A stretch of DNA of 64,000 nt from NCBI RefSeq assembly GCF_000821065.1, contig NZ_CDGG01000001.1:2108001-2172000 (forward strand), read 5' to 3'. A program made the position numbers and the translations under genes. The first letter of the stretch is position 1, and each line of letters starts with the position of its first letter. A model generated the notes under the pieces. It ran no database searches, was not told the DNA's origin, and was given only the letters and a program-made list of their open reading frames with translations. Below, piece after piece: positions 32,895 to 40,946 of this stretch. The DNA is from Oceanobacillus oncorhynchi (lineage in GTDB: Bacteria; Bacillota; Bacilli; Bacillales; Amphibacillaceae).

Positions 32895-34241
32895 ATGGAG
32901 TTTAATGTTTGGGATATTTTAATCGACTTTGGTATCATTTCTGCACTATTGCTGGTTGGAACTTTTCTGAGAGCAAAAGTGGGAATATTTCAACGGTCGT
33001 TTATGCCTGCAAGTATTATTGCCGGAATCCTTGGTTTGCTTTTAGGAAGCCATGGATTGAATATATTGCCATTTTCAGAACTAATCAGCACGTATCCTTC
33101 TTTATTGATTGCAGTAGTATTTGCTGCGCTTCCTTTATCAACACCAAAATTTAAATGGTCAGATATGTTTGATAAAGTAGGAAGATTATGGTCTTATTCT
33201 CAGGTTATTATGCTTCTTATGTGGGGAGGGGGATTATTATTTGCATTAGCGTTATTAGTACCGATATTTGATGTGCATAATGGATTTGGTTTGCTGCTTG
33301 CAGCAGGTTTTGTCGGAGGGCATGGCACCGCAGCCGCAATAGGAGAAGCCTTCCAGAGTCAGGGATGGGAAGAAGCTACTACATTAGCAATGACTTCAGC
33401 AACCATAGGAGCTATCTTAGCGATTGGAATAGGGTTGCTATTAATAAAATCTAATGCAAATAAAGGAAATACAAATTATATTAGCAGTTTTGATAAGCTT
33501 CCCAATGAATTGAAATCTGGTTTATTACCGAAAGATAAGCGAGATCCACTAGGAGAAAATACAGTATCAAGTATTTTAATTGATCCTTTTGCATTTCATC
33601 TGATTCTTGTTTTGATTGCTACTTCAATTGGGTATTATCTAAGCCAACTGGGCGAATCACTCTATGCAAGTTTATCCATTCCAGCATTTTCTCTTGCTTT
33701 TTTAGTCGGTCTATTACTGAGATATTTTTTAGAATGGATTAAAGCAGACGATTATGTTGATCATAAAATCATGAGCAGTATAGGGGGGAATGCAACTGAT
33801 TTTCTAGTTGCATTTGGCATTGCATCTATCAACTTGACGGTAGTTGCTGATAATATTGTGCCATTTAGCATTCTTATTATATTTGGCATCATTCTCAGCT
33901 ATATTTTTTATAAAGTTTTATCAAGGTATTATTTCCAGGAAAATTGGTTTGAAAAAGGAATTTTTACATTCGGGTGGATTACGGGGGCTGTTGCAACAGC
34001 AATTGCATTATTAAGAATCGTTGACCCAAAATTAAAAAGCAATACGTTAGATGAATTTGGGTTGGCGTATATACCAATAGCGCCAGTGGAAATCGCAATT
34101 ATTACATTTTCACCGCTGCTTATATTAAATGGGCATCATTGGCTCTTTGTCGTGATTACGATAGTTATTAGTTTCGTGATATTAACAGTATCCTACTATA
34201 AAAAATGGATTATATTAAATTCAAAGGAGAGATCAAAGTGA
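32895..34241 (+). CDS. Sodium/glutamate symporter family (GltS-like) carrier
   Basis: The 448-residue protein has about ten helices and the GltS pattern: 'FMPASIIAGILGLLLG' early, 'AAGFVGGHGTAAAIGEAF' in the first re-entrant loop and 'FGWITGAVATAIALLRIVDP' in the second half. GltS proteins take up glutamate-like anions with Na+. The linked cyclodeaminase-family enzyme suggests another amino-acid-like substrate. AAAGGGG precedes the ATG. The next gene overlaps by four bases (GTGA). Confidence 0.88.
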   Translation: MEFNVWDILIDFGIISALLLVGTFLRAKVGIFQRSFMPASIIAGILGLLLGSHGLNILPFSELISTYPSLLIAVVFAALPLSTPKFKWSDMFDKVGRLWSYSQVIMLLMWGGGLLFALALLVPIFDVHNGFGLLLAAGFVGGHGTAAAIGEAFQSQGWEEATTLAMTSATIGAILAIGIGLLLIKSNANKGNTNYISSFDKLPNELKSGLLPKDKRDPLGENTVSSILIDPFAFHLILVLIATSIGYYLSQLGESLYASLSIPAFSLAFLVGLLLRYFLEWIKADDYVDHKIMSSIGGNATDFLVAFGIASINLTVVADNIVPFSILIIFGIILSYIFYKVLSRYYFQENWFEKGIFTFGWITGAVATAIALLRIVDPKLKSNTLDEFGLAYIPIAPVEIAIITFSPLLILNGHHWLFVVITIVISFVILTVSYYKKWIILNSKERSK

Positions 34242-35362
34242 GTGAGAAGGTAGAATTTTTATACTTACAGGAAGAAGAATTAATTGAGGCTGGTGTTCTT
34301 GATATGAAAGAATGTGTCAGCACCATTGAGGAAATGTTTCATCTTATAGGGAAAGGCGATTATATGCTGGGAGGACCAAACAGAAATGATCATGGTTTAA
34401 TGCTTTGGTTTAATAAAGAGGAGCCATTTGAAAATATACCAAAAGCAGGTCCAGATCGAAGGTTTATGTCACTTATTTCCTATCTCGGAGGAGCATTCGA
34501 TGTAATAGGTAATAAATGGTATGGCTCTAATGTTGAAAATATGGATAAAGAACTGCCGCGTTCCATTCATACTTTTACACTTAATGATAAAGAAACAGGA
34601 GCACCGCTGGCAATCATGGCGGGGAACTTAATCAGTTCTATGCGAACGGGTGCAGTGCCTGGAGTTATTTCAAAACATCTTGCTAAGAAAGACGCAAAAG
34701 TTTTAGGTGCTGTTGGAGGCGGTGCAATCAATCAGTCTTGTATCGAAGCAATAGCAAGTTCCGTTAGTACGCTTGAAAAGATTGTCCTTTTTGATATTAA
34801 TTTAGAAAAAGGAAAACAAATTGCTGATAAATTGGAAAGGCAATTGAATCTTTTCGTTGAAGTAGTCGATGATTTGGATCACTGTATTCAGCAATCCGAT
34901 ATTGTAACTGTTGCTACATCTGGGAAAATTAAGCCAGAAATAAAGAAGGAAAGTATAAAGCCTGGGGCGCTTATCATTCTTACAGGAGCAGCAGATTTAT
35001 CTCAAGAAGTTTACAATCAATCAAGAATCGTTTCAGATTTATGGTCTATGCATAAAAAATGGCTGGAAGATGGATTATCACATCCTGATGGTATAGCCAG
35101 CATTCGTGATTGGACGATGTCAGGTCAACTATTAGAGCTCATCCATAACGGTGAATTTGATGACAGCACGGTTGATGATATCGGGGATATTATTTCAGGT
35201 CAAAAGACGGGAAGAAATACAGAAGATGAAGTTATTATTTGTATGACTGGAGGTCTTCCTACAGAAGACGTTGCCTGGGCATATAAAGTATATCAAAATG
35301 CATTAAAGAACAATATTGGAACAGCGCTTCCGTTATGGGAGAGCTCCTATTTAACAAAATAA
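34238..35362 (+). CDS. Ornithine cyclodeaminase / mu-crystallin family enzyme (tyramine oxidase subunit B-like)
   Basis: The 374-residue protein has a Rossmann core 'AKVLGAVGGGAINQSCIEAIAS', 'IVLFDINLEKGKQIADKL' and 'SDIVTVATSGKIKPEIKKESIKPGA', with 'SSMRTGAVPGVISKHLAKKDAK' before it. This is the ornithine cyclodeaminase/mu-crystallin superfamily (NAD(P)-dependent). It resembles proteins labelled 'tyramine oxidase subunit B', whose activity is poorly documented. The GTG start overlaps the GltS stop and follows AAAGGAGAG; an ATG at 34205 lies inside the carrier gene. Confidence 0.82.
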   Translation: MSEKVEFLYLQEEELIEAGVLDMKECVSTIEEMFHLIGKGDYMLGGPNRNDHGLMLWFNKEEPFENIPKAGPDRRFMSLISYLGGAFDVIGNKWYGSNVENMDKELPRSIHTFTLNDKETGAPLAIMAGNLISSMRTGAVPGVISKHLAKKDAKVLGAVGGGAINQSCIEAIASSVSTLEKIVLFDINLEKGKQIADKLERQLNLFVEVVDDLDHCIQQSDIVTVATSGKIKPEIKKESIKPGALIILTGAADLSQEVYNQSRIVSDLWSMHKKWLEDGLSHPDGIASIRDWTMSGQLLELIHNGEFDDSTVDDIGDIISGQKTGRNTEDEVIICMTGGLPTEDVAWAYKVYQNALKNNIGTALPLWESSYLTK

Positions 35363-35765: not shown

Positions 35766-36536
35766 TTAAATCAAGGTTATTTTCACACTGCCAATATCAC
35801 GGTAGCTGGCAAGATATTCACCTGCTTCTGCTTCAAATGGCGAAATAAATGTTCCAGAAGAAACCACCATGCCTTTTTGCAAAGACAAGTTATGACTGGC
35901 TAATTTCTCCACAAGCCATTTAACCGCATTGACAGGATTATCTAATACCGCATCAGAGCATCCGGTATGTGTTGTTTTTCCATTATATTTTAAATCGAGA
36001 TCAATTGCACCGAGCTTTTCTATGCTGGGAGAAGGAACAGGGCTGCCTGTAACTATTCTGCCTGTTGCTGTATTGTCAGATAGCAAATCCATTAATGAAA
36101 AATTCGGGAACCAGTTGATATATCTTGCATCTGGAATTTCAATTCCCGGAGCAACAGAAGTTTTTTCGATGATTTCCTGAACATCTGCGTTGTTTGAGAT
36201 ATCTTCATTGATGAAAAACATCAATTCAGGTTCAATCAAGGGAGAGAATAAATGGGATAGGGCATACTCAGCATCTCCCTGTAACACTTGTGATGTCAGA
36301 ATGGTTCCGTAGGCAGGCTCGTGTGTATCAGCAATTGCCTGTGTTTCTTTGCTGGTCATACTGATTTTATAGCCCGCGACCGAATCACCCTCCTGAACAC
36401 GTTTGTTAATAAACGCATGTTGCACTTGATATGCTTCATCTTCGCTGATTGTATAGTTTTCACGAATAAATGAAACGGGCTTATGCGCCTCGTAAGCTGT
36501 TTCGATATGTGCTAAAATTTCGGGAATAACGCTCAT
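35766..36536 (-). CDS. 2-keto-4-pentenoate hydratase family (FAH superfamily) enzyme
   Basis: The 256-residue protein has the hydratase pattern 'VAGYKISMTSKETQ', metal ligands in 'LIEPELMFFINED' and 'APGIEIPDARY', 'DNTATGRIVTGS' and 'VSSGTFISPFEAEAGE'. Members add water to 2-oxo-4-enoates (aromatic meta-cleavage products) or decarboxylate related acids. No aromatic pathway genes are nearby, so the substrate is open. AAGGAG precedes the ATG. A terminator separates it from the upstream oxidase gene. Confidence 0.85.
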   Translation of the reverse strand: MSVIPEILAHIETAYEAHKPVSFIRENYTISEDEAYQVQHAFINKRVQEGDSVAGYKISMTSKETQAIADTHEPAYGTILTSQVLQGDAEYALSHLFSPLIEPELMFFINEDISNNADVQEIIEKTSVAPGIEIPDARYINWFPNFSLMDLLSDNTATGRIVTGSPVPSPSIEKLGAIDLDLKYNGKTTHTGCSDAVLDNPVNAVKWLVEKLASHNLSLQKGMVVSSGTFISPFEAEAGEYLASYRDIGSVKITLI

Positions 36537-36628: not shown

Positions 36629-37774
36629 TTAGTTATCAGCAGCAATTTTCAATGTGAGCTGCTTTACTTCTTCTATTGTCTTAGCTCCAGATAATGCCAT
36701 CGATACAGCAACTTCTTGCGCAAGGTTAGCGAATATCTTCTGAACGCCTGCTTCTCCCTGAAGTGCAAGCGCGTAGGTATACGGACGCCCAAATAAAATC
36801 GCATCTGCGCCAAGCGCCAGGGCTTTGATGACATCTGCTCCCCGGCGGATGCCGCTATCAAGCAGCAAGGGGAAATCTGGACCAACAGCTTCGCGTATAG
36901 CTGGTAATGCTTCCAGACTTGGTATGATTCCGTCCATTTGTCTGCCGCCATGATTGGAGACAATAATCCCGTCTATTCCGGCTTTTATTGCTTGTTTTGC
37001 ATCTTCAGGATGAAGGATGCCTTTTAGAAAAATTGGCAGCTTCGTACGTTGACGTAATGCCGTTATATTGTCCCAATGAAGGGATGGGTGATGAAGGTTT
37101 TCAATAATTGATTCAACTTCATCCTGTCCATCCTTTAAGCCTTCTTGAAATGCAGGATCCTGGACATAGTTTGCTTTTCCATACCCTTTTTTCAATGGGG
37201 AGTACTGATGCCTCATATCATCTTCACGCCACCCGAGAATCATAGTATCCACGGTGACCACTATCGCTTCATATCCGGCTTTTTCTGCGCGTTCTGCCAT
37301 ACTGTAGGAAATAGCATCATTATTGGACCAGTATAATTGAAACCATTTTGGTCCATGAGGAACAGCTTCCGAGACTTCTTCGATAGATCTTGCTGTAACA
37401 GTGCTTTGAATGTATGGAATATTCATCGAAGCCGCAACATTTGCAATGGCAAAGTCAGGTTCTTCATGAACCATTTTTAAATGTCCTATCGGAGCGACCA
37501 TTAATGGGGAAGCATATTCTTTTCCTAAAATACGTATAGATGTGTCTACTTCGGAGACATTACGTAAAAACCTGGGAATAATCGAATATTTCTCAAAGGC
37601 TTCTCTGTTTTTTCTTAACGTTTCTTCCCCGCCGGCACCAGAGCGGATGTGGCCAAATACTTCTGCCGGCAGGGCATGCTTTGCTGCAGCTTCAAGCTGT
37701 GCAGTGCCAATTGGAAAGGAATCTTGTATGGTTATATGCTCTAAGAAAGAGCCTTTCTTGGATGAGGTTGTCAT
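36629..37774 (-). CDS. FMN-dependent alpha-hydroxy-acid oxidase/dehydrogenase (lactate oxidase-like)
   Basis: This 381-residue TIM-barrel flavoprotein retains the family residues: K251 in FLKGI, catalytic H275 and R278 in SNHGGRQMDG, D306-G308-R310 in LLDSGIRRG, and the phosphate-binding FGRPY. It oxidises an L-2-hydroxy acid to a 2-oxo acid. Relatives are lactate and glycolate oxidases. It lies 14 bases after metP under the SAM riboswitch, so the substrate may be methionine-related (for example 2-hydroxy-4-methylthiobutanoate); this is inference. GGAGG precedes the ATG. Confidence 0.88.
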   Translation of the reverse strand: MTTSSKKGSFLEHITIQDSFPIGTAQLEAAAKHALPAEVFGHIRSGAGGEETLRKNREAFEKYSIIPRFLRNVSEVDTSIRILGKEYASPLMVAPIGHLKMVHEEPDFAIANVAASMNIPYIQSTVTARSIEEVSEAVPHGPKWFQLYWSNNDAISYSMAERAEKAGYEAIVVTVDTMILGWREDDMRHQYSPLKKGYGKANYVQDPAFQEGLKDGQDEVESIIENLHHPSLHWDNITALRQRTKLPIFLKGILHPEDAKQAIKAGIDGIIVSNHGGRQMDGIIPSLEALPAIREAVGPDFPLLLDSGIRRGADVIKALALGADAILFGRPYTYALALQGEAGVQKIFANLAQEVAVSMALSGAKTIEEVKQLTLKIAADN

Positions 37775-37788
37775 ATTTTTTCCTCCAA

Positions 37789-38451
37789 TTAATCTTTTTT
37801 CAATCGTTCGGCGAGTCGGTTTCCAAGAGACTGAAGACCTTGAACGATAATAACGAGCATAATAACCGTAACGTACATGACGTCTGTTTCATAACGCAAG
37901 TGTCCAAATCGGTAAGCTAAGTCACCCAGGCCTCCAGCGCCGACTAATCCGGCCATAGCAGTTGCCCCGATAAGGCTGATTGTTGCGATGGTTAATGCAA
38001 GAACAATGGCTGGTCTCGCTTCACGCAGCATCACATTCCAAATAATTTGATGTGTCTTTACTCCCATCGCTCGATATGCTTCGATAACACCTTGGTTGAC
38101 CTCTAACAGGGAGGATTCAATCAGTCTGGCGATATAAGGAGCTGCATTGACAACGAGCGGCACAATAACTCCTTTTACACCAATGGTTACACCTACAATC
38201 AATTTGGTGAAAGGAAGCATAAAGAATAAAAGAATAATAAATGGAATGGACCGGATGACGTTAATCAGCAGGTTTAAAGACTGATAAACAAACTTATTTT
38301 GCAAGGGTTGTCCCGGACGTGTCAAAACTAATAGAATAGCTAAAATAACGCCGATAATAACAGCGAAAAACAAAGAGATTAAAACCATTTGAAGAGTTTC
38401 TATTATGGCATCATAAAACTCTGAACCCCATTGATCAATAAATGCCTGCAT
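37789..38451 (-). CDS. metP: Methionine-type ABC transporter permease
   Basis: The 220-residue permease has five helices and a binding-protein-dependent transport loop with 'EAYRAMGVKTHQIIWNVMLREARPAIV'. This is the MetI/MetP type, matching the MetN-like ATPase encoded one base upstream. Normally a MetQ lipoprotein gene follows; here the next gene is the alpha-hydroxy-acid oxidase. It lies in the SAM-riboswitch operon. Import of methionine or an analogue is expected. Confidence 0.92.
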   Translation of the reverse strand: MQAFIDQWGSEFYDAIIETLQMVLISLFFAVIIGVILAILLVLTRPGQPLQNKFVYQSLNLLINVIRSIPFIILLFFMLPFTKLIVGVTIGVKGVIVPLVVNAAPYIARLIESSLLEVNQGVIEAYRAMGVKTHQIIWNVMLREARPAIVLALTIATISLIGATAMAGLVGAGGLGDLAYRFGHLRYETDVMYVTVIMLVIIVQGLQSLGNRLAERLKKD

Positions 38452-38452
38452 G

Positions 38453-39472
38453 TTAATTCACCCCCAATTCTTCTACTTCTACGCCTTGTTCTTTTAAGAA
38501 GGAGAGAGAATGTTCTACTTGATGCTCACTGCCAATCAAATGAACGACAAGGTTGCCGACAATGCCATTTTTTAATTCGATAATATTGGCAGTCAGAATA
38601 TTCGGCTCTACATAAAATTGCTGTGTTACCTTAGACAACAGCGGCTGACCTGTATTTTCACCAAGGAAGGTTAAACGAATTACTTTGCCTTCTAAATTCA
38701 ATTCATCAATTAAACGATCCGATAATTTTCGTTGTGAAATGGTATTTAAGAACTTTTTAGTCGTCGGCTGTTTAGGTTTTGTAAATAGTTCTATCGTCGA
38801 ACCTTGTTCAATGAGGTTTCCATTTTCAATAACATAGACATAATCGCATATTTTTTGGATAACGTTCATTTCGTGCGTGATTAATAGTATTGTGATCCCA
38901 AGCTCTGCATTAATTTTTAATAATAGTTCGAGAATGGAATTTGTCGTTTCTGGATCGAGTGCGCTGGTTGCCTCATCGCTCAGGAGGACCTGTGGCTCCT
39001 GTGACAGCGCCCTGGCAATAGCGACACGCTGCTTTTGACCGCCGGAAAGCTGGGAAGGATAAGCATCTTTTTTCTCAGATAAATCGACAATATCTAAGTA
39101 TTTCATGACTCTTTCCTTAACCTCTGCCTTCGGTACGCCGAGTAATTTTAATGGAATCGCAATGTTATCATAGACACTGGCAGTCCTTAATAAATTAAAA
39201 TGCTGAAAAATCATGCCGACCTTTTGTCTTGTTTGCCGGAGCTTTTCTTTTGACAGCTTCGTTAAGTCGGTTCCATCAATCCAAACCTTTCCTTTCGAAG
39301 GAGACTCCAGTAAATTGACACAGCGAATTAATGTACTTTTTCCTGCACCGCTGTAGCCGATTACGCCATGGATTTCTCCTTTATTGACAGAAATCGACAC
39401 ATCGTCCAGTGCAGTAACATCCTTTCCTTTTTTGGAGGGGAAAACTTTTGTGACATTCTCTAATTTGATCAT
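38453..39472 (-). CDS. metN: Methionine-type ABC transporter ATPase with NIL domain
   Basis: The 339-residue protein has Walker A GYSGAGKST (39-47), signature LSGGQKQRVAIARAL, Walker B VLLSDEATSALD and a C-terminal NIL domain (about 260-339), which binds methionine for trans-inhibition in known MetN proteins. ATG 39472 (MIKLENVTK) fits the family start; an in-frame ATG at 39499 would add nine residues. It is the first gene after the S-box leader. Confidence 0.93.
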   Translation of the reverse strand: MIKLENVTKVFPSKKGKDVTALDDVSISVNKGEIHGVIGYSGAGKSTLIRCVNLLESPSKGKVWIDGTDLTKLSKEKLRQTRQKVGMIFQHFNLLRTASVYDNIAIPLKLLGVPKAEVKERVMKYLDIVDLSEKKDAYPSQLSGGQKQRVAIARALSQEPQVLLSDEATSALDPETTNSILELLLKINAELGITILLITHEMNVIQKICDYVYVIENGNLIEQGSTIELFTKPKQPTTKKFLNTISQRKLSDRLIDELNLEGKVIRLTFLGENTGQPLLSKVTQQFYVEPNILTANIIELKNGIVGNLVVHLIGSEHQVEHSLSFLKEQGVEVEELGVN

Positions 39473-39560
39473 CTGCTGTTTTTCCTGCCTTTCTATCATT
39501 ATGCTGCAGTTGATAGGTAATATTGTTTGCAGCTGTCTTGTCAGAATCGATACAATTTCT

Positions 39561-39594
39561 AAAAAAGAGCCTCTCTAGGGTAAGAGAGGCTCGA
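39561..39594 (-). terminator. Expression-platform terminator of the SAM riboswitch
   Basis: On the minus strand, GAGCCTCTCTTA and TAGAGAGGCTC pair and are followed by TTTTTT, directly downstream of the aptamer. Confidence 0.9.
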
Positions 39595-39610
39595 AAATGT
39601 AATCTTATTT

Positions 39611-39714
39611 TCTGCTCTCATCTTTCAAGACGGGTGTCTTGCTGGAATTAGCACCTTTTTTTAAGGTTGCCGAGCTTCAACGGGCCAGTCCCTCAGCTGC
39701 TCTGGATAAGAGGT
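39611..39714 (-). ncRNA. SAM-I (S-box) riboswitch
   Basis: The minus strand shows the conserved S-box order: CTCTTATCCAGAGCAGCTGA, GGGACTGGCCC, TTGAAGCTCGGCAACC, GGTGCTAATTCCAGC and a closing GATGAGAG. The P1 arms CTCTTATC and GATGAGAG pair. With high S-adenosylmethionine the downstream terminator should form, switching off metNP and the oxidase gene. Confidence 0.96.
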
Positions 39715-39741
39715 GTGGTAGTAATTGAATTGTATTCTTTA

Positions 39742-39770
39742 AAAGTATCTTATTTTACAAGTTTCGTCAA
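39742..39770 (-). promoter_or_regulatory. Promoter of the S-box operon
   Basis: On the minus strand, TTGACG and TACTTT are 17 bases apart, with the predicted start about 20 bases before the aptamer. It lies just after the mtnE stop codon. Confidence 0.55.
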
Positions 39771-39773
39771 TAT

Positions 39774-40946
39774 TTATTTTTGAAACAGCTGCAGTTTCTC
39801 AATACGTCGAATAGCTTCGCGAATACGATTCTCTTCTACGAGTAATCCGACGCGTATATAACCTTCTCCATTCTTTCCGAAACCATTCCCGGCTGCAACG
39901 GCTACATCCGCCTCTTGTAATAAATAATCAGCAAATGTTTCACTTGTAAATGCCGCTGGTACAGGGAGCCAGGCAAAGAAAGAGCCTTTCGGTGCAGTGA
40001 CTTCCCAGCCGATACGTCTGCATTCTTCTATGAGAACATCTCTGCGCTGTTCATAGCGTTCCACAAGCGAGGTGACACAGCTTTGGTCCCCTAATAATGC
40101 TTCCGCAGCTGCCTTTTGAATAGCTGGGAAAAGACTGACAAATAAATGGTCCTGCAGAATATTAATCGCTTCGATCATATCTTTGTTGCCAGCAGCAAAA
40201 CCGACTCGCCAGCCGGCCATATTATAGGTTTTGGAAAGGGTGTACAGCTCAACGCCGACATCTTTCGCTCCTTTTGTCTGTAGGAAGCTTATTGGCTGAT
40301 AGCCGTCGAAACCGATGGCTCCATAAGCGAAATCATGAACAACACCGATATCATTTTCCTTCGCTAACGCAACGGTATCTTCAAAAAATTCTTTCGTTGC
40401 GACACCTCCGGTCGGGTTGTTTGGATAGTTGAGATATAATAGCTTGGCAAGTTTCTTTTGTTCCGGCGTCAGGGCAGCATAATCTGGTAAAAAATTGTTT
40501 TCCTCTAATAATGGAAACGTGTCATAAGTAACGTCTGCTAATGAAACACTGGACAAATAATCTGGATATCCAGGGTCTGGCAAGAGCATTAATTCGCCTT
40601 CATCCATAACAGCTAAAGGGAGTTCTGCCAAGCCAATTTTACTTCCGAACAAAATAGCAATTTCTGAAGCAGGATCTAAATCGACATTATATTCTCTTTT
40701 ATAAAACTGTGCTGCAGCCCCTTTTAATTCATCGGTACCGCGGAAAGGGGAATATTTATGGGCAGCCGGATTTTCGGCGCTTTCCTGAAGTGTACGGATA
40801 ATATGCGGCGGTGTCGGCTGATCCGGGTTGCCTTGTCCGAGATTGATAATATCTCTTCCTTCTTCCAGGGCTGCAGCGACTTTGCCGGCAAGGGATGCAA
40901 AAAATTGAGCAGGAAGCTTTTCTACACGACGGGATAACTTCATCAT
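39774..40946 (-). CDS. mtnE: Methionine-salvage aminotransferase MtnE
   Basis: The 390-residue fold-type I PLP enzyme has NYPNNPTG (173-180), D205/Y208, the PLP lysine K239 in TLSKTYNMAGWRVGF and R247. The sequence closely follows Bacillus MtnE (YkrV), e.g. 'INLGQGNPDQPTP' and 'HKYSPFRGTDELK'. MtnE transaminates 2-oxo-4-methylthiobutanoate to methionine in the salvage pathway. No other mtn genes are in the window; the S-box operon lies directly downstream on the same strand. AGAGG precedes the tandem ATG start. Confidence 0.9.
   Translation of the reverse strand: MMKLSRRVEKLPAQFFASLAGKVAAALEEGRDIINLGQGNPDQPTPPHIIRTLQESAENPAAHKYSPFRGTDELKGAAAQFYKREYNVDLDPASEIAILFGSKIGLAELPLAVMDEGELMLLPDPGYPDYLSSVSLADVTYDTFPLLEENNFLPDYAALTPEQKKLAKLLYLNYPNNPTGGVATKEFFEDTVALAKENDIGVVHDFAYGAIGFDGYQPISFLQTKGAKDVGVELYTLSKTYNMAGWRVGFAAGNKDMIEAINILQDHLFVSLFPAIQKAAAEALLGDQSCVTSLVERYEQRRDVLIEECRRIGWEVTAPKGSFFAWLPVPAAFTSETFADYLLQEADVAVAAGNGFGKNGEGYIRVGLLVEENRIREAIRRIEKLQLFQK

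Follow-up and report, generated by a model that had tools for sequence, protein, structure and literature searches.

The window analysed here is a 64,000-nucleotide stretch of Oceanobacillus oncorhynchi DNA (all coordinates are window positions), in which an S-box riboswitch is followed on the minus strand by genes for a methionine-type ATP-binding cassette (ABC) importer and a flavin mononucleotide (FMN)-dependent alpha-hydroxy-acid oxidase. The S-box (SAM-I riboswitch; SAM, S-adenosylmethionine) aptamer at 39615..39712 matched RF00162 with 87 bits against a gathering threshold of 44.4 (E 2.9e-19) and has the consensus and structure of the class, and the intrinsic terminator of its expression platform (39567..39592, a 10-bp stem and six T) lies ahead of the first gene. 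The leader folded with a z of -5.85 compared with shuffled sequences, its class suggests switching by SAM, and no other S-box was found in the window. The first gene, metN (38453..39499, minus), encodes a methionine-type ABC ATPase with a NIL domain (TIGR02314, 388.6 bits, cut-off 499.7; PF09383, 76.6 bits), and its start is likely nine codons downstream, at about 39472, judging from the 339-amino-acid metN frames of relatives. It is followed by the metI-type permease gene metP (37789..38451, minus; NF008049 MetI, 210.9 bits, cut-off 212) and by the oxidase gene (36629..37774, minus; PF01070, 413.5 bits), whose predicted substrate is the methionine hydroxy acid. The mtnE gene, for the transaminase of 2-oxo-4-methylthiobutanoate, is located at 39774..40946 on the same strand (NF005977, 660.5 bits, cut-off 494); it is 5' of the S-box and therefore not controlled by it.

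Between metP and the oxidase gene there are 14 nucleotides, in which a GGAGGA ribosome site can be read; no terminator was called at this junction, and the weak 5-bp calls within the genes were at the level of shuffled sequences. A hairpin behind the oxidase gene is visible by eye and was not called by the terminator search. The oxidase has K251, H275, R278, Y148, D176 and R183, and it is the sole full-length PF01070 match of the genome, the next being a partial one of 56.8 bits. The coordinates and alignments thus agree with the original prediction as to the layout, which had an S-box leader ahead of metN and metP, an oxidase with intact K251, H275 and R278 14 bases after metP, and mtnE directly upstream.

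A search of 159 genomes of the family gave 64 strong oxidase matches (E <= 8.2e-92, window included), and 61 of their contexts were read; G128, G129 and G133, from a genus whose seven examined members were all unlinked, were left out together with weaker or partial matches. The results showed that the oxidase gene adjoins metNP in 33 contexts (33/159 genomes, 12/46 genera) and is unlinked in 28. An S-box was located upstream on the same strand in all 33 linked loci and, within the stretch retrieved, in none of the 28 unlinked ones, two of which (L111 and L115) have a nearby S-box facing other genes. All 33 linked and all 28 unlinked oxidases retain the catalytic K, H and R. From an order-wide draw of 397 genomes, 96 with a profile match, we examined 30 loci, seven of this family and 23 of others; metP lies beside the oxidase gene in 13 of these 23, from six families, and an S-box was found in all 13. 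Absence of the metP-oxidase linkage from relatives had been named in advance as the result that would speak against the original prediction, and these counts show the opposite. All 46 linked loci, from seven families of one order, have an S-box and then a same-strand run of recognised genes up to the oxidase gene (the run test counts only genes that match a reference gene set), and on this ground a chance neighbourhood was rejected. The gap between metP and the oxidase gene is variable, for example about 420 nucleotides in L067. A named survey of 80 loci among the matches listed, mostly of distant phyla, yielded none with a metP match in the stretch retrieved and has little bearing on this order.

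The usual metQ, encoding the binding protein, had been described as replaced by the oxidase gene, and this part of the original prediction was not upheld, since metQ has been relocated: the genome has two metQ genes, each behind an S-box away from the oxidase locus, and one falls into a group with metQ from the oxidase operons of relatives. Loss of metQ was accordingly rejected. At least nine S-boxes were counted in the genome, a lower bound because 150 of 257 first-look candidates were scored. The first metQ forms part of an ordinary S-box-metNPQ operon (L010). The second (MetQ2) lies behind another S-box (L011), after an iron-containing alcohol dehydrogenase gene that resembles E. coli HcxA/YbdH; its best NCBIfam model was PRK10586, which we take to be the model of the E. 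coli protein, with 304.3 bits against a cut-off of 429.

Sequence comparison separated the two importers. The window MetN is 49% identical to the ordinary MetN of the genome and 57-93% identical to the MetN of other oxidase operons, and the corresponding values for MetP are 42% and 61-91%. In each of the 45 other oxidase operons, MetN and MetP resemble the window pair more than the ordinary pair, and each of the 38 linked MetQs has the second-operon MetQ, not the ordinary MetQ, as the nearer of the two. The MetNP and MetQ of the oxidase operons, as judged by their sequences, are a subfamily distinct from the ordinary MetNPQ of the genome. Because MetN and MetP (45/45) and MetQ (38/38) group with their homologues from oxidase operons, the window MetNP and the second-operon MetQ most likely form one transporter divided between two S-box operons. 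With a NIL-containing MetN, a MetP (both below their NCBIfam cut-offs) and a matching MetQ2, the components of a methionine ABC importer are all present.

Some relatives have the whole gene set in a single operon. An S-box-metQ-metN-metP-oxidase-HcxA order was found in L265-L268 and L270, and an S-box-HcxA-metQ-metN-metP-oxidase order in L271 and also in L273, which has one extra frame of 391 amino acids between metQ and metN; in the window's own genus, L072 has S-box-metN-metP-oxidase-HcxA-metQ. The two S-box operons of the window genome jointly carry the same gene set as these one-operon relatives. Within the genus, 13 genomes, including that of the window (L200-L206, L208, L209, L211-L214), have HcxA and metQ side by side with an S-box of their own upstream. 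Two smaller features were observed in these operons. In L072, the interval from the S-box to metN holds a Bacillaceae-1 RNA on the opposite strand (L072:3378-3434). In the HcxA operon of the window genome, metQ is followed by a peptide-binding-protein-like gene (L011:4121-5719), whose best model, GsiB, did not reach its cut-off; five close relatives (L201-L205) have this gene too.

HcxA, counted at E <= 1e-65 in the 159 family genomes, was found in 29 of 33 operon genomes and in 23 of 126 others (Fisher 1.3e-13, kinship ignored); by genus, it was found in 9 of 12 with the operon and 6 of 34 without (Fisher 6e-4, kinship likewise ignored). In 32 of the 52 genomes with HcxA its gene is within 1.5 kb of mtnE, and mtnE is within 10 kb of the oxidase gene in 25 of the 33 family operon genomes; in the window genome HcxA and mtnE are apart. 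In the stretches retrieved around the 46 linked loci, HcxA was present in 23, mtnE in 25 and an mtnU-like gene in 12. A gene whose start, by eye, resembles that of mtnU was also observed about 4 kb from an oxidase gene unlinked to metNP (L098:1513-2298). In E. coli, ybdH lies next to ybdL (mtnE), and in enterobacteria the two genes share MetJ sites and are tightly repressed, according to the available part of PMC3228920; the activities cited in an available portion of PMC11481890 are hydroxycarboxylate dehydrogenase for YbdH and methionine aminotransferase for YbdL.

The window genome has MtnE, and MtnK, MtnA and acireductone dioxygenase, the three other Mtn enzymes searched for, gave no match in it, so the 2-oxo acid for MtnE would need a source other than 5'-methylthioadenosine (MTA) recycling. 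In the family, MtnK was found in 18/159 genomes, G110 being the only one among the 33 operon genomes; MtnA was found in 8 over its cut-off and in 17 at E <= 1e-20, and 17 genomes have an acireductone dioxygenase match, the best of which is partial, with 27.5 bits.

From these results we propose, with moderate confidence, that the window holds half of a conserved, S-box-led operon whose distinct MetNP-type importer and oxidase are predicted to take up and oxidise 2-hydroxy-4-methylthiobutanoate (HMTB) at low SAM, with MtnE likely transaminating the product. At low SAM the S-box would permit expression of metNP and the oxidase gene, HcxA and MetQ would be made likewise from the second S-box operon, and this MetQ would serve the window MetNP. 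The importer would then bring in a methionine-like compound, predicted to be HMTB, and the oxidase would convert the L-hydroxy acid with O2 to the 2-oxo acid. HcxA may handle the other enantiomer or interconvert oxo and hydroxy acids, and MtnE would perform the final step, the transamination of 2-oxo-4-methylthiobutanoate to methionine. HMTB was chosen because it fits the type of importer, the 2-hydroxy-acid oxidase family and an adjacent MtnE whose usual oxo-acid source was not found. The available part of PMC11306096 presents it (as MTHB) as a natural intermediate of dimethylsulfoniopropionate (DMSP) synthesis that is said to enter methionine salvage. The salvage idea of the original prediction was therefore strengthened by the conserved linkage, the HcxA-like and mtnU genes nearby and the three MTA enzymes not found, and was wrong in detail about metQ. 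A wider version would be a complete riboswitch-run salvage of the racemic methionine hydroxy acid, in which a dedicated MetQNP, the FMN oxidase (for L) and the HcxA-type enzyme (for D) feed MtnE without MTA recycling, and DMSP-making algae or microbes are the source of the hydroxy acid; we offer it tentatively and regard it as rather doubtful.

Several observations weigh against HMTB salvage. At ten of the 23 loci examined in other families, metP was not seen within 1.5 kb of the oxidase gene. HcxA is missing in 4 of the 33 operon genomes, and that of the window genome is below the cut-off of its model, as given above. MtnE is present in 111/159 family genomes, far more than carry the operon; with MtnK in 18, this indicates that MtnE has some wider use in the family. 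In the window oxidase, His42 aligns with a Tyr common to lactate oxidase and lactate monooxygenase; this position, which holds His in the window oxidase and those of five close relatives (6/33), Tyr in 26/33 and Phe in 1/33, is presumably one of seven conserved residues. A survey of enzymes found all seven in 12 of 14 active proteins and at least one missing from 8 of 10 inactive proteins (PMC8491902, in the part available). As to substrate size, an accessible section of PMC10153336 describes two pocket positions at which larger substrates are accommodated when the residue is small, and these are G97 and V126 in the window oxidase. Both suit a large side chain, yet they discriminate poorly, as G97 occurs in 28/28 and V126 in 11/28 unlinked oxidases; inference of specificity from the pocket residues was rejected, and, with G97 equally fixed in unlinked enzymes, the wide pocket is not particular to the operon.

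The MetQ proteins also gave a result that weighs against a hydroxy-acid cargo. We aligned 28 linked MetQs (those of L261-L273 were left out), taking the register from an alignment to E. coli MetQ. In NmMetQ, R156, N213 and N238 contact methionine at its amino and carboxyl groups (PMC6739813, in the part available), and these R, N and N contacts are kept in 28/28, so that methionine itself may be the cargo. No hydroxy-acid signature was found in the 28 aligned proteins. H100 is replaced by T in five of them (L011, L072, L087, L089 and L090) and Y103 by F in 26. The unchanged contacts speak for the strongest alternative, namely that the importer carries methionine, and that the oxidase and HcxA re-oxidise HMTB formed from 2-oxo-4-methylthiobutanoate by side activities and so recapture an internal pool. 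We know of no dedicated hydroxy-acid importer that accompanies ybdH-mtnE in E. coli. The control of both E. coli genes by MetJ, as described in the accessible text of PMC3228920, likewise favours this alternative. Against it stand the distinct MetNP subfamily that comes with the oxidase in 45/45 other loci, suggesting a distinct cargo, and the lack of any match in the window genome to MtnK, MtnA or acireductone dioxygenase of the MTA route, from which the oxo-acid pool would be supplied. We consider it unlikely.

The remaining unfavourable observation concerns additional genes in some relatives. A crotonase gene lies between metP and the oxidase gene, and a CaiB-type coenzyme A (CoA)-transferase gene after the latter, inside the S-box run of nine loci (L066, L068-L071, L073, L261-L263), and both are found further down in L091; the best solved match of the CoA-transferase was succinate-hydroxymethylglutarate CoA-transferase. 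These genes do not fit a plain two-step salvage. They would suit an enzyme resembling lactate 2-monooxygenase, by which HMTB or a related hydroxy acid is decarboxylated to 3-methylthiopropionate, followed by CoA-dependent breakdown to methanethiol for methionine synthesis. The best single-copy solved structure matching the window oxidase is indeed lactate 2-monooxygenase (6dvh, 282.1 bits), the two higher-scoring structures being double-copy lactate oxidases with about 186 bits a copy, and an NY..DP.FQ stretch of loop 4 is common to the window oxidase and lactate monooxygenase. By alignment, loop 4 of the window oxidase is longer than in lactate oxidase and shorter than in lactate monooxygenase, and the latter difference may tell against such a reaction. 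Also against it are the closeness of mtnE in 25/33 and the window operon itself, which, like 36/46 loci as retrieved, has neither crotonase nor CoA-transferase. We judge a monooxygenase route distinctly unlikely, and because the crotonase and CoA-transferase pair is otherwise unexplained, it still has to be reckoned with. That the oxidase acts on lactate, glycolate or another common hydroxy acid, its operon position having no link to methionine chemistry, is very unlikely, since the linkage is kept across seven families and the L-lactate oxidase model TIGR02708 scored 258.3 bits, far under its cut-off of 645.5, although family membership alone does not fix the substrate.

We compared the proposed import and oxidation of HMTB with known systems. 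The locus resembles the Bacillales S-box metNPQ operon in having an S-box and terminator before metN and metP; it differs in its distinct MetNP/MetQ subfamily and its FMN oxidase (in some relatives also HcxA), and the ordinary operon is separate in this genome. The enterobacterial ybdH(hcxA)-ybdL(mtnE) pair under MetJ is similar in that an HcxA-like gene lies beside mtnE (32/52 family genomes) under methionine-type control; here, in contrast, control is by a riboswitch, not MetJ, an importer and an FMN oxidase are added, and HcxA and mtnE of the window genome are apart. MtnE, together with mtnU near 12/46 loci, is shared with MTA methionine salvage, whereas no MtnK, MtnA or acireductone dioxygenase was detected here and the oxo acid would derive from a hydroxy acid. 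The FMN L-2-hydroxy-acid oxidases (lactate, glycolate and long-chain HAOX2) and lactate 2-monooxygenase have PF01070 and the catalytic residues in common with the window oxidase, which is unlike them in its intermediate loop 4 and, in the window clade, a substitution of His for the active-site Tyr; the window oxidase stayed below the cut-off of every curated NCBIfam model. A literature search found no S-box operon with this oxidase; it did not cover the 2004 study of the Gram-positive methionine regulon, where an earlier mention is possible. The main text of PMC3766115 does not contain the word oxidase, and PMC4239095 does not contain ybdH. B. subtilis yoaDCB was considered as a precedent, and PMC2885750, in the part available, does not bear on it.

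The methionine hydroxy acid is a marketed feed additive, and the proposed pathway, if true, would be a natural bacterial route from hydroxy acid to methionine. MtnE would gain a purpose in operon genomes without MTA recycling, and the importer subfamily, the oxidase and the dehydrogenase would be singled out for direct assay. The importer in question is a methionine-transporter subfamily that accompanies an oxidase and is not the ordinary metNPQ.

Other genes were recorded around the locus and behind other S-boxes. After the hairpin behind the oxidase gene comes a gene for a 2-oxopent-4-enoate hydratase-like protein, a possible accessory (35766..36536, minus; TIGR02312, 135.7 bits, cut-off 351.5); it is also 3' of the oxidase gene in L060 and L065 and might act on a 2-oxo acid. 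At 32895-35362 of the window, a 448-amino-acid frame, membrane-like by eye and without an NCBIfam match, overlaps an ornithine-cyclodeaminase-like gene (PRK06199, 401.8 bits, over cut-off). Another S-box precedes genes for an AhpD-like protein, an NtaA/DmoA-family FMN monooxygenase (over cut-off) and a sodium:solute symporter-like protein (L015:1921-6154), which could be a methylated-sulfur salvage operon. Downstream of a further S-box lie a homocysteine methyltransferase-like gene (below cut-off) and cyclase-like and MetE-like genes, the latter two recognised by eye (L013:2039-5227), and a similar pair is also found behind an S-box in L111.

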